64,000 nt of DNA, taken from Dermatophagoides farinae. Lineage: Eukaryota; Arthropoda; Arachnida; Sarcoptiformes; Pyroglyphidae. The stretch covers positions 6,949,001 to 7,013,000 of the forward strand of contig NC_134679.1 of NCBI RefSeq assembly GCF_024713945.1, read 5' to 3'. The position numbers and the translations under genes were made by a program. The notes beneath the pieces were generated by a model that saw nothing but the letters and a program-made list of their open reading frames with translations, had not been told where the DNA came from and ran no database searches. Of this stretch, positions 58,962 to 64,000 are shown in pieces. Within the stretch, counting starts at the first letter, position 1, and each line of letters starts with the position of its first letter.

Positions 58962-60630
58962 ATGAAATTGTTTGCCATTTTCGTGGTCAACCTAATTCTC
59001 ATCAGTTCGTCAGGTTTGTATGATGATTGTTGATTTAATTTATGTTTAATGATTATGAATGGATATTTGTATGTTATCTAGTTCTGGCCGGACCTATCGA
59101 TGTCACGGAAACAGAAGAAACATATCCAACAACCGTAACTGAAGAACCTTCAACTATGACAACAATCGTAGAAACAACAACCGAAGAAATGAAAACAACA
59201 CGAACACCATATCATTCTTCATTCAAAAATACGGATTGTAATTTTACAGCATGCGTTGCACCAGATTGTCAATGTTTACAGGATCTGCCACCGAATGGAA
59301 TGAATATCGATGATATACCACAATTTGTAATTGTCACATTTGATGGTGCTGTTACTGTAACAAATTTCCCTTATTATCAAACATTGTTTGATTTCAAAAA
59401 TCCCAACAATTGTCCAATAGAAGCTACATATTTTGTATCACATGTAGATAGTAATTATAAATTGGTACATGAACTTTATCGTCGTGGCAATGAAATTGGT
59501 GTACATTCAATCAGGTTTGAAACAAACGAACTTGTGATGTGTGATTCTAATATATAATTTTTCTATTTTCTTTTTATAGTAAAGCCAAAAATAATAATCA
59601 AGAATTTTGGAAATATCTAGATTATGAAGGATGGCGACAAGAAATGGGTGGACAACGACAAATTCTTTCGAAATATTCAGAAATTCCTATCGGAAAAATT
59701 CGTGGTGTACGAGCTCCGAATCTTCAGACAGCCGGAAATGTTACATTCACTGTAAGTAAATGATAATTGATTGATTGTTGAAATATTGAAGAAACGACTA
59801 CGACAATTAAATTATTCAAATTTTTTCCTTTCAAAAGGCTTTTGTCGATGAAAACTTTGAATATGATTGTTCGAATCCATCACGTCGTGGTATTAATTCG
59901 CCGTTTTTCCCATATACATTTGATTATGGCTTTCAACGTGAAAATGATTGTCAAGTACAACCATGTTTGAAAAAAGGAGAAAATTACCCGGGATTCTGGG
60001 ATGTACCAATGAATGATTGGGATGTCGAATATGAAGTACAAGGAGGTAGGTATTTCGTCTCGTATATATATAACGTATTCTTATTCACTTTTTCCCTTTT
60101 TTTCCTTTCTTCCCTCCATCATAGTAAAAGTTCATCGTGAATGTGCTATGGCTTCTGCATGTATTATGTTCAATAAAGATGGTAGTGTTATCTATCACCC
60201 AACTGCTGATGAAATATATGATTTGTTTGAATATAATTTCAATCACTATTATAATGGTAATCGTGCACCATTTCCATTATTTCTAAGCGAAGAATGGATG
60301 CATGATGAAGCCAAACGTAATGCATTACAACGTTTTATCCAGGATAAATTAGAAAAACATGATGTATTTTTCGTATCGATTGATGAAGTATTACAATGGA
60401 TGCAATCACCAACCAATGTGCATGAATATATTGAAAAAACTAAACAATGTAAACCAATTGTCAAAACAAAATGTGGCCTGAAAGATGGTGAAATTATCAA
60501 TGATATTTCGCAATTTAAACGAAAATGTGATTATGAAAAAATCGATGAATTGAATGGACAAAGCAAACGTATGGTTATCTGTGACGATTTACATTGCCCC
60601 GAACATTATCCATGGCTAAATCGTTTGTAA
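58962..60630 (+). CDS. Secreted chitin-deacetylase-like protein (CE4 fold) with altered metal site
   Basis: Five exons: 58962-59013, 59082-59514, 59580-59751, 59838-60045, 60125-60630; introns 67-86 nt; 456 aa. A signal peptide (1-20) is followed by a Thr/Glu-rich stretch that is probably O-glycosylated (25-60), a Cys cluster (C70, C75, C80, C82) and a polysaccharide deacetylase domain. Family landmarks are present: ATYFVSH, the RRGNEIGVHSI motif, GVRAPNL, WDVPMNDW, and the C-terminal NRAPFPLFLSEEWM. Known active CE4 enzymes have TFDDA, HSxTH and RAPY. Here they read TFDGA (Gly106 instead of the metal Asp), HSISK (His159 kept, Lys163 instead of the second His) and RAPN (Asn209). Activity is therefore doubtful; a chitin-binding or cuticle/peritrophic structural role is possible. 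No separate chitin-binding or LDL-receptor domain was recognised. Confidence 0.88.
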
Positions 60631-61226
60631 TAACAATCGTTATTTTTTGAAATGTCAATGTCACATGGAATATTCCGAAGAAATTGGTTCATTAATCATC
60701 ATAAAACTTAGTTATTGCAAAAAAACAGATTTGCACAAAAAAGTTTGAAATTTTTGTACTTTTTCCCCTCTTGTTTTGTTTTCGTTCAATAAAGCACAGA
60801 ATCAAACCGACCCCTCCACCACCAGCACCACCGCACAGAATAAAATTAAAATTAAAATATGAATTATTACACTGCATTACTTGATTCATTGATTCATTTA
60901 TATTATTTTTAGATGATGATATTTGGTTATATTTGTTTTTTTGAATCATTGTGTCATCACATGATCAATATTAATGATTATTCATGATATTGTGTAGTCA
61001 ATATCGCGAATCTATCTATATCGGTTTGAAAATAAAACTCAACAAATGAAAAAGATGAAATTATCGATATATAAATCCACAATGAAATTAAGAATAATGT
61101 TCCCTGCAAAAAAAAGAAGAAAAACCTAGAGAGATTTTGATTGTTTTTTTTTGTGTGTGTGTGTCTGTACAAATGTACTTTTTTTCCATTCTTTGAAATG
61201 TCTTTGCAGATGAGCATTTTCGGTGG
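60631..61226. other. Intergenic region CDA-like / microexon gene
   Basis: No gene seen. AT-rich, with an AATAAA-type signal (near 60789) that could end the deacetylase-like transcript, and a pyrimidine/purine CCACCACCAGCACCACC patch near 60817. Confidence 0.5.
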
Positions 61227-61235
61227 TATAAAAAG
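61227..61235 (+). promoter_or_regulatory. TATA-box candidate of the microexon gene
   Basis: GG-TATAAAAAG-CCC, a strong consensus TATA box in a locally GC-containing setting, sits 126 bp upstream of the ATG at 61353. This leaves room for a start site near 61260 and a 5' UTR of about 90 nt. Confidence 0.6.
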
Positions 61236-61352
61236 CCCATATGAAAAGTGTACATTTCAACCAAATGTGTGTTTGTGTGTGTTTAAAAATAAATCAGAAA
61301 ATTTTTTTTATAAGTCAACAACATAAAATTTCTTTTTGGCTGAAAAATAAAT

Positions 61353-62352
61353 ATGGCATATTTGAATATACGTGAACCGATGACTCTAAAATCATCTAAA
61401 TCATCATTTTATTTAATGATGATAATCGGATTGGCTTTATTAAACACACAGTCATCATATCATGCAAATGCCATTCCATTATCATCATCATCACCATTAC
61501 AACAAGAATTAGATCAACAACAGCAAACTCAACAGCCATCTGATTCAAATGAATTACAACTTGCAAGATTATTATTTAAACGAGGTGTAAGTTTTTATTT
61601 CATTTTTAATTATGAAATTCATGAATTTTTTTGAAATAATTTATTTCCATCTAAATATCGTCAATTATGCAGAACAATTTAGGACGAAAGGTATGTTGTC
61701 CTATTTAGTAAATGGTTTTCAGATATTATTAATCAGAAATTTTTTCCAATTTGACCCAATCGATTAACAGTTGGTATGTATTTTTTAAATTTTGTAATTA
61801 ACCTTGAATAAAATGTTTTTGTTTTGTTTTGAAACAAATAAAATTACCAACAAATCATCAATCAGATGTGTCAGGTAATTTCCGATGCTTTTCTGGATTA
61901 ATTGTGTGATTAATTTTTTTTCCAACTTTTCATCTCATTTTTTTTATCAACACAAATAGATTGATCATAGGGTAAGTGTTGATCGATATGAAAATTGATT
62001 TTGCATTCTGTTTTCTTAATTTATTTTTTCCTGTTTGAAAAATATAATAGAATTGCCGTTCGGTAAGTTGAATCGATTTCCTTTTTAATCAAATGTTTTT
62101 CACTAGAAAAAATTGAATCAATCCATCCTGATGATAGTTTAATGAAGCTAAACGAATGAACTCAATGACGACGGACAAACGAATTCTACAGAATTTGTTA
62201 CAGAATTTGGCCGATCTATTTGAAAGAGTAATGTTTTTTTCAGATTCAATAATAATTAAGTATAGTCATCATCATTGATGGTTTTTCTTCATTTCCTCCA
62301 CCCACAGAATCCTGACTGGATGTCATCATTATCGTCGATGAAAAGAAAATGA
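61353..62352 (+). CDS. Putative secreted peptide precursor assembled from tandem microexons
   Basis: Eight proposed exons, all phase 0: 61353-61586, 61673-61690 (18 nt), 61771-61773 (3 nt), 61865-61873 (9 nt), 61960-61971 (12 nt), 62051-62062 (12 nt), 62138-62227, 62308-62352. Each microexon is bounded by AG before and GTAAG/GTATG/GTAAT after; the introns are evenly sized (75-91 nt). The joined frame has no stop until the end and gives 140 aa. The N-terminus is a signal peptide (FYLMMIIGLALLN, probable cut after HANA), then a Ser/Gln-rich spacer, then dibasic LLFKR. The microexons encode NNLGRK-L-MCQ-IDHR-NCRS, containing a C-x6-C loop, and the last exons add AKR, DKR and SMKR sites. This is the architecture of a neuropeptide or hormone precursor, but no known family was recognised. 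The 3-nt exon is the least certain element. Confidence 0.6.
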
Positions 62353-63146
62353 ATTTAGTTAGATCGATAAATCGATTCCGAATGGCTGATTCAATTCATT
62401 CTTTGTTATTAGTTGTTGTTCATCTCATCATCATCATTATCATCATCACCACCACCACCACCACCATTAATATTTCAACTTCATTTTATTACAATTTGAA
62501 TCAATTTAGTTAGTTAGTTTGTTTGTTTGTTTGTTGATCATGTGTTAGATTAACGATTATGATTATTCCGAAAACAATTCCAATACAACGAACACATTAC
62601 TGCTATGTTGATGATAAACGAAAATTATATTTTCCAAAATTTTGAAACACACTTCTCACATTGGGACATCTACCGATGAATATTTAAACTAATGATAATA
62701 TTTATGCATAACGTTTGTTATGAACAGTTAGTAGTAGCGTTGTTTTTTTTGAATCACGTGACATTGTCAATGTCAACATTATTTGATTTTTTGTTTTTTA
62801 AAATTTGAAAATAAAATAAAATTTTTGTTTGCCAAACGAAATGATTATTAAATATTTAAGATTTGGGGTTGCTTATGGAAAGAGAAAAATCGAATAAAAA
62901 TTGATTAGAAATTTTATCATCATCATCATCATTGGTAATCAAATTTTCATCGATTTTTTTTCTTTTTTGTTGGCCTTGATGATTCGTACACTTCATTTCA
63001 ATTATTATCTCCTTTAAATTGTTGTTGCACGTATCGATTGTAGTGTTATCAATTTGTTTTTTTTTTTTTTGCAATATTCATTCGTTGTTTTTTCCTTGTT
63101 TGTTTTTATCTAATCAATTCTTAGAATAGAAAATCTTGAAAATAAA
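62353..63146. other. Intergenic region microexon gene / NAPRT
   Basis: No gene seen. Contains a CAT/CAC trinucleotide-rich stretch at 62429-62466 and GTTT repeats at 62517-62534, with T tracts. Confidence 0.5.
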
Positions 63147-64000
63147 ATGAGCACAAAAGTAAGCACCTTTGCCGAAGTGGAAATGGAATTTTAATTATAA
63201 TTTCATTAAATGAGAACTATTCTTGATTATTATTAATTGATTAAATTTTAATTTTTTTATTTTTTACCCTTTGTAAAATTAGCCGACTGAAATGTACTCG
63301 GATCGTGGTTGTCATTCGTCGATTCAATCATCAAATGATCACGTAAATTGTTGTCGACAAATTCACATGCCACTTTTAACAGGTAACAATATCTTATTCA
63401 TTTAAACGGTTTTTTCAGTCATTTCTGTTTTGTAAAATAAGACAAATATCAAATTACAATGGCATATGCCTATTGGAAGAATGGTATGTCGGAAAAATTT
63501 GCCGTGTTTGATATATTTTTTCGTAAAAATCCATTCGGCGGAGAATTCACCGTTTTTGCTGGTCTTGAAGAATGTCTAAATTTTCTACAAGGATTTCATT
63601 ACACATCTGATGGTATTTGGATAGCTAATTTGTATGGATGGAATTAATAGAATTGTTGTTGTTGTTGTTATATTTTGATTTTGATAATAGATATTGATTT
63701 CTTTCGAAAAATTCTTTTCGATGATGTTGAAGATGAGTTTTTTGATTATCTATCAAAAATCACTGCCAAAGATGTTGTCCTTTATTCCGTAGCCGAAGGT
63801 TCGGTCGTATTTCCTAAAGAGCCATTGATGCGTATTGAAGGTCCACTTGTTGTTTGTCAATTATTGGAAACAACATTTTTAACTTTGGTTAATTATGCTT
63901 GTCTTATCGCTACAAATGCTGCCCGATATAAGATTGCAATTGATAATCGTAAAATTCAATTGCTTGAATTTGGACTTCGTCGTGCACAAGGTCCAGATGG
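63147..64000 (+). CDS. NAPRT: Nicotinate phosphoribosyltransferase, N-terminal part (cut by window edge)
   Basis: Rate-limiting enzyme of the Preiss-Handler route: nicotinate plus PRPP to nicotinate mononucleotide, leading to NAD. Exons: 63147-63158 (only MSTK, 12 nt), 63283-63382, 63442-63612, 63691 to beyond 64000. Phases agree and junctions fall in conserved motifs: [18 protein letters not shown] spans exons 2-3, [19 protein letters not shown] is in exon 3, YTSDDIDFFRK spans exons 3-4. Exon 4 has the family hallmarks [25 protein letters not shown] and [13 protein letters not shown], which is the substrate-binding region. About 200 residues are visible of an expected 540 or so. The first coding exon is very short, so an alternative upstream start cannot be excluded. 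Confidence 0.93.

Follow-up and report, generated by a model that had tools for sequence, protein, structure and literature searches.

The gene on the forward strand at positions 61353-62352 of the window, a 64,000-nucleotide stretch of the Dermatophagoides farinae genome, raises the question of whether five consecutive microexons, the shortest of 3 nt, are a genuine part of a small protein-coding gene, and of what such a gene would encode. Microexons are usually discussed as lone cassette exons of neuronal genes or as parts of many-exon effector genes, and astigmatid mites include major allergen sources and parasites. Our analysis indicates that, most likely, the product is a secreted prepropeptide belonging to an unnamed family of astigmatid mites and the five microexons are normally included.

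The gene has eight coding exons of 234, 18, 3, 9, 12, 12, 90, and 45 nt, all in phase 0 and all divisible by 3 in length, which are separated by seven introns of 86, 80, 92, 85, 79, 75, and 80 nt, in that order; when joined they give a coding frame of 423 nt that translates to 140 amino acids. Exon 1 (61353-61586) contains the start, a hydrophobic segment resembling a signal peptide, and a Ser/Gln-rich propeptide ending in LLFKRG. It is followed by microexons 2 (61673-61690, NNLGRK), 3 (61771-61773, the single codon TTG for L), 4 (61866-61874, MCQ), 5 (61960-61971, IDHR), and 6 (62051-62062, NCRS), then by exon 7 (62138-62227), which holds the putative cleavage site FNEAKR, opens the C-terminal peptide, and ends in LFER, and by exon 8 (62308-62352), which reads NPDWMSSLSSMKRK before the stop. 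The joined protein has two Cys residues, the first in the 9-nt exon and the second in the second 12-nt exon, and the pair is flanked by dibasic sites, KR and RK on one side and KR on the other. All seven introns contain at least one stop when translated in the exon frame. Every intron is bounded by GT and AG, as a preliminary description of this DNA had stated, but the uniform GTAAG-type donor that it also proposed does not hold: the donors are GTAAGT in three of the seven introns, GTATGT in two, GTAATT in one, and GTAATG in one, the last. Pyrimidine tracts at the acceptors of introns 1-6 are weak (7-10 of 16). The TATA box placed 126 bp upstream is present as TATAAAA at 61227-61233 on the same strand, 126 nt 5' of the ATG, and may serve as a promoter element; on the far side of the gene, AATAAA at 62810-62815, with a second copy at 62893, is a possible polyadenylation signal.

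Support for this exon chain comes from related proteins. A protein search with the joined sequence recovered six relatives among 24 candidates (P0001-P0006), with 96% identity between the joined protein and a D. farinae protein, and a search with a profile of the core added one relative among 154 candidates (P0007). We define the core as the 27 residues made up in turn of KRG, NNLGRK, L, MCQ, IDHR, NCRS, and FNEAKR, 18 of which come from the microexons. P0004, the uncharacterized protein LOC113796969 of Dermatophagoides pteronyssinus, contains KRGNNLGRKLMCQIDHRNCRSFNEAKR, which matches the product of the window exactly only when all five microexons are joined; P0007, the hypothetical protein TYRP_016697 of Tyrophagus putrescentiae, carries KRGINLGRKMMCQIDHRNCGSFNEAKR. 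Both are predicted proteins that were annotated independently, and by taxonomy Dermatophagoides and Tyrophagus belong to separate superfamilies of Astigmata, Analgoidea and Acaroidea, respectively. We enumerated all GT-AG chains of any phase in 61587-62137, and exactly one of them spells the 18-residue microexon core of P0004.

Conservation is concentrated in the same segment. All 18 microexon residues and all 27 core residues of the D. farinae product recur unchanged in P0004; in P0007, 15 of 18 and 24 of 27 do. Beyond the core, where the alignment is loose, identity falls to 64 of 104 aligned positions for P0004 and 24 of 82 for P0007. Since identity is highest in the core in both comparisons, the segment split into microexons is the most constrained part of the protein. 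NNLGRK is the same in P0004 and in P0001, a D. farinae gene model, and becomes INLGRK in P0007; the 3-nt exon corresponds to L in P0004 and M in P0007; MCQ is kept in both of these; IDHR is kept in all three; and NCRS is the same in P0001 and P0004 and becomes NCGS in P0007. Dibasic sites bracket the conserved peptide in every aligned sequence, from KRG to EAKR. P0004 and P0007 also share the overall plan of the D. farinae product, namely a signal-like segment, a spacer, KRG, a two-Cys core, EAKR, and a C-terminal tail, and in both species comparisons the core is conserved and the spacer changeable, as expected of peptide precursors. They differ from it in the tail, most of all in Tyrophagus; the NPDW of exon 8 is shared with P0004 and not with P0001 or P0007.

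Given that the same peptide is found in the predicted proteins of two other mites, the odd exon structure appears to be real as judged from sequence comparison. The exon chain and the mite relatives thus agree with the preliminary description on five consecutive symmetric phase-0 microexons (18, 3, 9, 12, and 12 nt); the joined translation places the only Cys-Cys loop in them, between dibasic sites, as it had proposed; and the intron stops and the single spelling chain accord with its view that the frame continues through these exons. The remaining relatives, P0002, P0003, P0005, and P0006, are unnamed open reading frames that contain exon 1 and KRG and then read through into intron 1 as VSF, which corresponds to the GTAAGT donor; the D. 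pteronyssinus-like frames among them, P0005 and P0006, enter the intron at the same place as those of D. farinae. Intron 1 (61587-61672) seems to vary among D. farinae sequences in both length and sequence, with P0002 and P0003 diverging from the window after KRGVSFYFIFNYEI.

To judge from our searches, the conserved core exists once in the genome. P0004 matched six places at E ≤10, two of which lie within the locus itself (exons 1 and 7); the other four (L004, L005, L007, and L008; E 0.002 to 1.2) contained no C-x6-C-x-SFN, NLGRK, IDHRN, or NEAKR in six frames, and L007 carries a lone MCQ. P0007 had no match in the genome, a null result that would be expected if the core is split over exons but is uninformative, and the pattern MCQIDH gave 0 matches; no contiguous copy of the core was found by any of these three queries. 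The positive control FNEAKR found the locus, its reversed control giving 1 match, and DHRNC gave 16 matches against 7 in the reversed control, a pattern too short for inference. At the DNA level, the genome yielded, besides the locus, a single stretch of about 100 nt on C9 (L002, G000:C9:2098362-2098460, minus strand) that matches at 74% and aligns with query positions 40-145, in exon 1.

What the gene encodes has to be judged from the anatomy of its product. The hydrophobic segment has an 11-residue core with a mean Kyte-Doolittle value of 2.6 in D. farinae, 2.8 in D. pteronyssinus, and 3.5 in Tyrophagus, a measure of hydropathy only. Every sequence recovered by homology was either from an astigmatid mite or an unnamed open reading frame matching one of these. 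Pfam gave sub-threshold matches only (COPI_assoc at 17 bits with a cut-off of 30, Tau95 at 12.3 with a cut-off of 23.7), as did NCBIfam for P0004 (four matches), with none there for P0007 or P0001; among solved structures, one search by sequence gave three matches at E ≥2.5 and another gave two at E ≥0.24, and Rfam had no match in 60800-63200. Searches with P0004 produced 600 pattern stretches in viral_contigs and 592 in genome_contigs, of which 0 were confirmed, a result of little weight in viral or prokaryotic sets. An AlphaFold2 model of P0004 built with three sequences was of low confidence (mean pLDDT 54, pTM 0.24). Because no family matched and the structure is of low confidence, the case for a hormone is one of precursor anatomy.

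That anatomy is suggestive, in that neuropeptide precursors have a conserved core flanked by KR, and the relatives in two mites, which share both the core and the precursor plan, bear out the earlier proposal of a secreted-looking peptide precursor. We consider it probable, taking the explanation as a whole, that this is a single-locus prepropeptide gene with five constitutive microexons whose KR-cut product is a neuropeptide or hormone with one disulfide. Once the gene is transcribed and spliced, the precursor would enter the secretory path through the putative signal peptide carried by exon 1; it would then be cut after KR and before or after EAKR, and perhaps at RK too, where amidation would be possible through a conserved Gly. 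The mature peptide would contain one loop, C-QIDHRN-C, closed by a presumed disulfide, and might act in signalling as a neuropeptide or hormone. A likeness exists to allatostatin-C-type peptides, which have one disulfide with six residues between their Cys residues and a YFNP-S-CF core (CYFNPxSCF). The spacing of six is the same here, and CYFNPxSCF is absent on direct reading from the translated core, which has CQIDHRNC and a longer tail after it. A paper on stages of D. pteronyssinus names 23 neuropeptides (PMC12105342).

The conserved protein could instead be a secreted effector, an antimicrobial, or a structural peptide, which we regard as possible if somewhat unlikely. The anatomy by itself speaks for secretion and dibasic sites only, no peptide family was matched, and the microexon-rich schistosome MEGs and aphid bicycle genes discussed below are described as encoding host-interaction proteins (PMC8293314, PMC9168663). 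Those families change fast, however, whereas the core found here is nearly fixed across mite superfamilies and occurs at one locus in the genome, and the bracketing of that core by KR is what one sees in neuropeptide precursors. A signalling peptide is our preferred reading of the product.

The preliminary description had also linked exon symmetry to a combinatorial family of peptides from one locus. Our results do not support this, since no part of the protein is more conserved than the residues coded by the microexons, and skipping would be costly: omission of exon 4 or exon 6 would lose one of the two Cys residues, and omission of exon 5 would leave two of the six loop residues. Given this strong constraint and the damage to the Cys loop, we read the five microexons as constitutively included. 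A narrower form of the idea, in which the gene is real and alternatively spliced into at least two forms that differ in whether exons 3 and 4 are present, and hence in whether the Cys loop is on or off, strikes us as unlikely. Symmetric microexons would keep the frame on skipping, and the D. farinae model P0001 does join NNLGRK to IDHRNCRS; it includes microexons 2, 5, and 6 and omits L and MCQ, and thus one Cys. P0004 and P0007, however, have the full core with nothing skipped. UGC close to the 3' splice site is a mark of the neuronal (eMIC/SRRM-type) microexon programme, and within 30 nt upstream it occurs at one of the five microexons, exon 2, on which basis we do not assign the gene to that programme.

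The details of P0001 are themselves doubtful. It ends in LFERYSHHH, as opposed to the NPDW of both P0004 and the window, and that end would require a last intron of 33 nt with an AAG acceptor (62228-62260 in the window); the deposited model is therefore probably wrong at its end, as far as sequence can tell. The skipped form, the only one seen, may be a mapping artefact, as annotation most readily overlooks exons as small as these, of 3 and 9 nt. The published chromosome-level annotation of D. farinae is described as combining homology, RNA-seq, Iso-Seq, and de novo prediction (PMC8487952), and in plants very small microexons are reported to be often misannotated (PMC8831610). That the L and MCQ exons form a switch yielding two signalling peptides, one looped and one linear, which would set the choice of receptor, perhaps by stage or neuron type, seems to us decidedly unlikely; if such a switch existed, splice choice over 12 coding letters would decide the form of the peptide.

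When the DNA sequence is taken by itself, the least secure member of the chain is the 3-nt exon. It could be that the other four microexons (18, 9, 12, and 12 nt) are genuine and that D. farinae does not use the 3-nt exon, giving a product that reads GRK-MCQ: a chain without this exon also exists, P0001 lacks the residue, and some 3-nt candidate arose in 14.5% of 5000 shuffles of the exon 3 interval. We find this very improbable, since L in P0004 and M in P0007 occupy exactly that position, and without the exon the D. farinae product would fall one residue short of both relatives. Candidates encoding Leu or Met arose in only 1.9% of the same shuffles, and in 0.08% with a comparable donor (GTAAG, GTATG, or GTGAG), and TTG is the sole 3-nt candidate in the actual interval.

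We also examined how readily such a chain arises by accident, using random 551-nt stretches from both strands of the window with their ends set to GTAAGT and CAG, and accepting chains in which every exon was symmetric and 3-30 nt long, acceptors were YAG, donors agreed with RAGT in three or more of its four letters, and introns spanned 60-110 nt. A full microexon chain was found in 0 of 20,000 stretches outside the locus; when the locus was allowed, 5 of 20,000 gave one, all 5 overlapping it, and a smaller run that did not exclude the locus gave 2 of 4000. Although GT and AG are frequent (36 and 26 dinucleotides, respectively, in 61587-62307), the notion that a microexon chain can be read into any AT-rich intron is largely refuted by these counts, by the 0 of 2000 dinucleotide shuffles of the interval that spelled the core, and by the relatives in two further species, and we give it a negligible probability.

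With introns of 75-92 nt, each could be recognised by the splicing machinery as a unit (intron definition). As the two sites of the 3-nt exon could hardly be bound together, its flanking introns would be removed in turn, so that the exon is probably joined stepwise, one intron leaving before the other. In Caenorhabditis elegans, microexon inclusion is reported to need PRP-40, a U1 component, except where the introns on either side are unusually short, a finding that the authors read as evidence of intron definition (PMC8378409); this result, together with introns of about 80 nt here, suggests that runs of microexons may be tolerable. Introns around plant microexons are likewise described as being removed sequentially (PMC8831610). 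The size of the introns is not special to this gene, since an intron in the neighbouring nicotinate phosphoribosyltransferase gene is 78 nt long. We also considered that the introns might be recent copies of each other, and rejected it: 20 of the 21 intron pairs lie within the shuffle null, the exception being introns 2 and 6, whose score was exceeded in 1 of 60 shuffles, and the short direct repeats among introns are T-rich.

The known systems closest in exon structure lie elsewhere. Schistosome MEGs are described as encoding secreted proteins from runs of short symmetric exons, with 72 genes in 25 families that consist mainly of such exons and are tied to protein variation (PMC8293314). The mite gene resembles them in anatomy only, as a secreted protein encoded with a run of short symmetric exons; general homology searches found no MEG homology. 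By the MEG criterion, under which a symmetric exon may not exceed 36 bp, five of its eight coding exons would count, but they hold 54 of the 423 coding nucleotides, and the mite gene differs further in being one locus with a fixed core. Aphid bicycle genes, from another arthropod group, likewise encode secreted proteins and have numerous internal exons that are unusually small and share one phase; they are reported to form a large divergent family with a mean of about 17 exons, nearly all of phase 2 (PMC9168663), whereas the mite gene is in phase 0 throughout, has eight exons, and is a single locus with a conserved core. Drosophila troponin T has a 3-nt exon, described as a single cassette in a muscle gene (PMC8042270), while the mite 3-nt exon is one of five in succession and codes for part of a peptide-precursor core. 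The preliminary description knew of no arthropod peptide precursor built this way. For peptide precursors this may hold, in that none appears among the matches listed from open-licence literature (judged by titles, the starts of abstracts, and counts), but the bicycle genes show that microexon-rich genes as such are present in arthropods (PMC9168663).

What makes the locus interesting is that a probable hormone has its conserved core spread over five consecutive microexons, down to 3 nt in length, within a compact genome whose introns measure about 80 nt. If our reading is correct, the gene would add a peptide precursor family of astigmatid mites, one that may escape ordinary annotation given how hard it is to place a 3-nt and a 9-nt exon. 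It would also offer a compact natural test of the spliceosome on exons too short to be bound at both ends simultaneously, and it would raise the question of why introns have gathered in just that segment of a small gene which is under the tightest constraint.

On its upstream side, the locus is preceded by open frames at 59039-60627 without a Pfam match, one of them Cys-rich. The downstream gene, at 63441-63998, encodes the nicotinate phosphoribosyltransferase (NAPRTase_N), with the 78-nt intron at 63613-63690.
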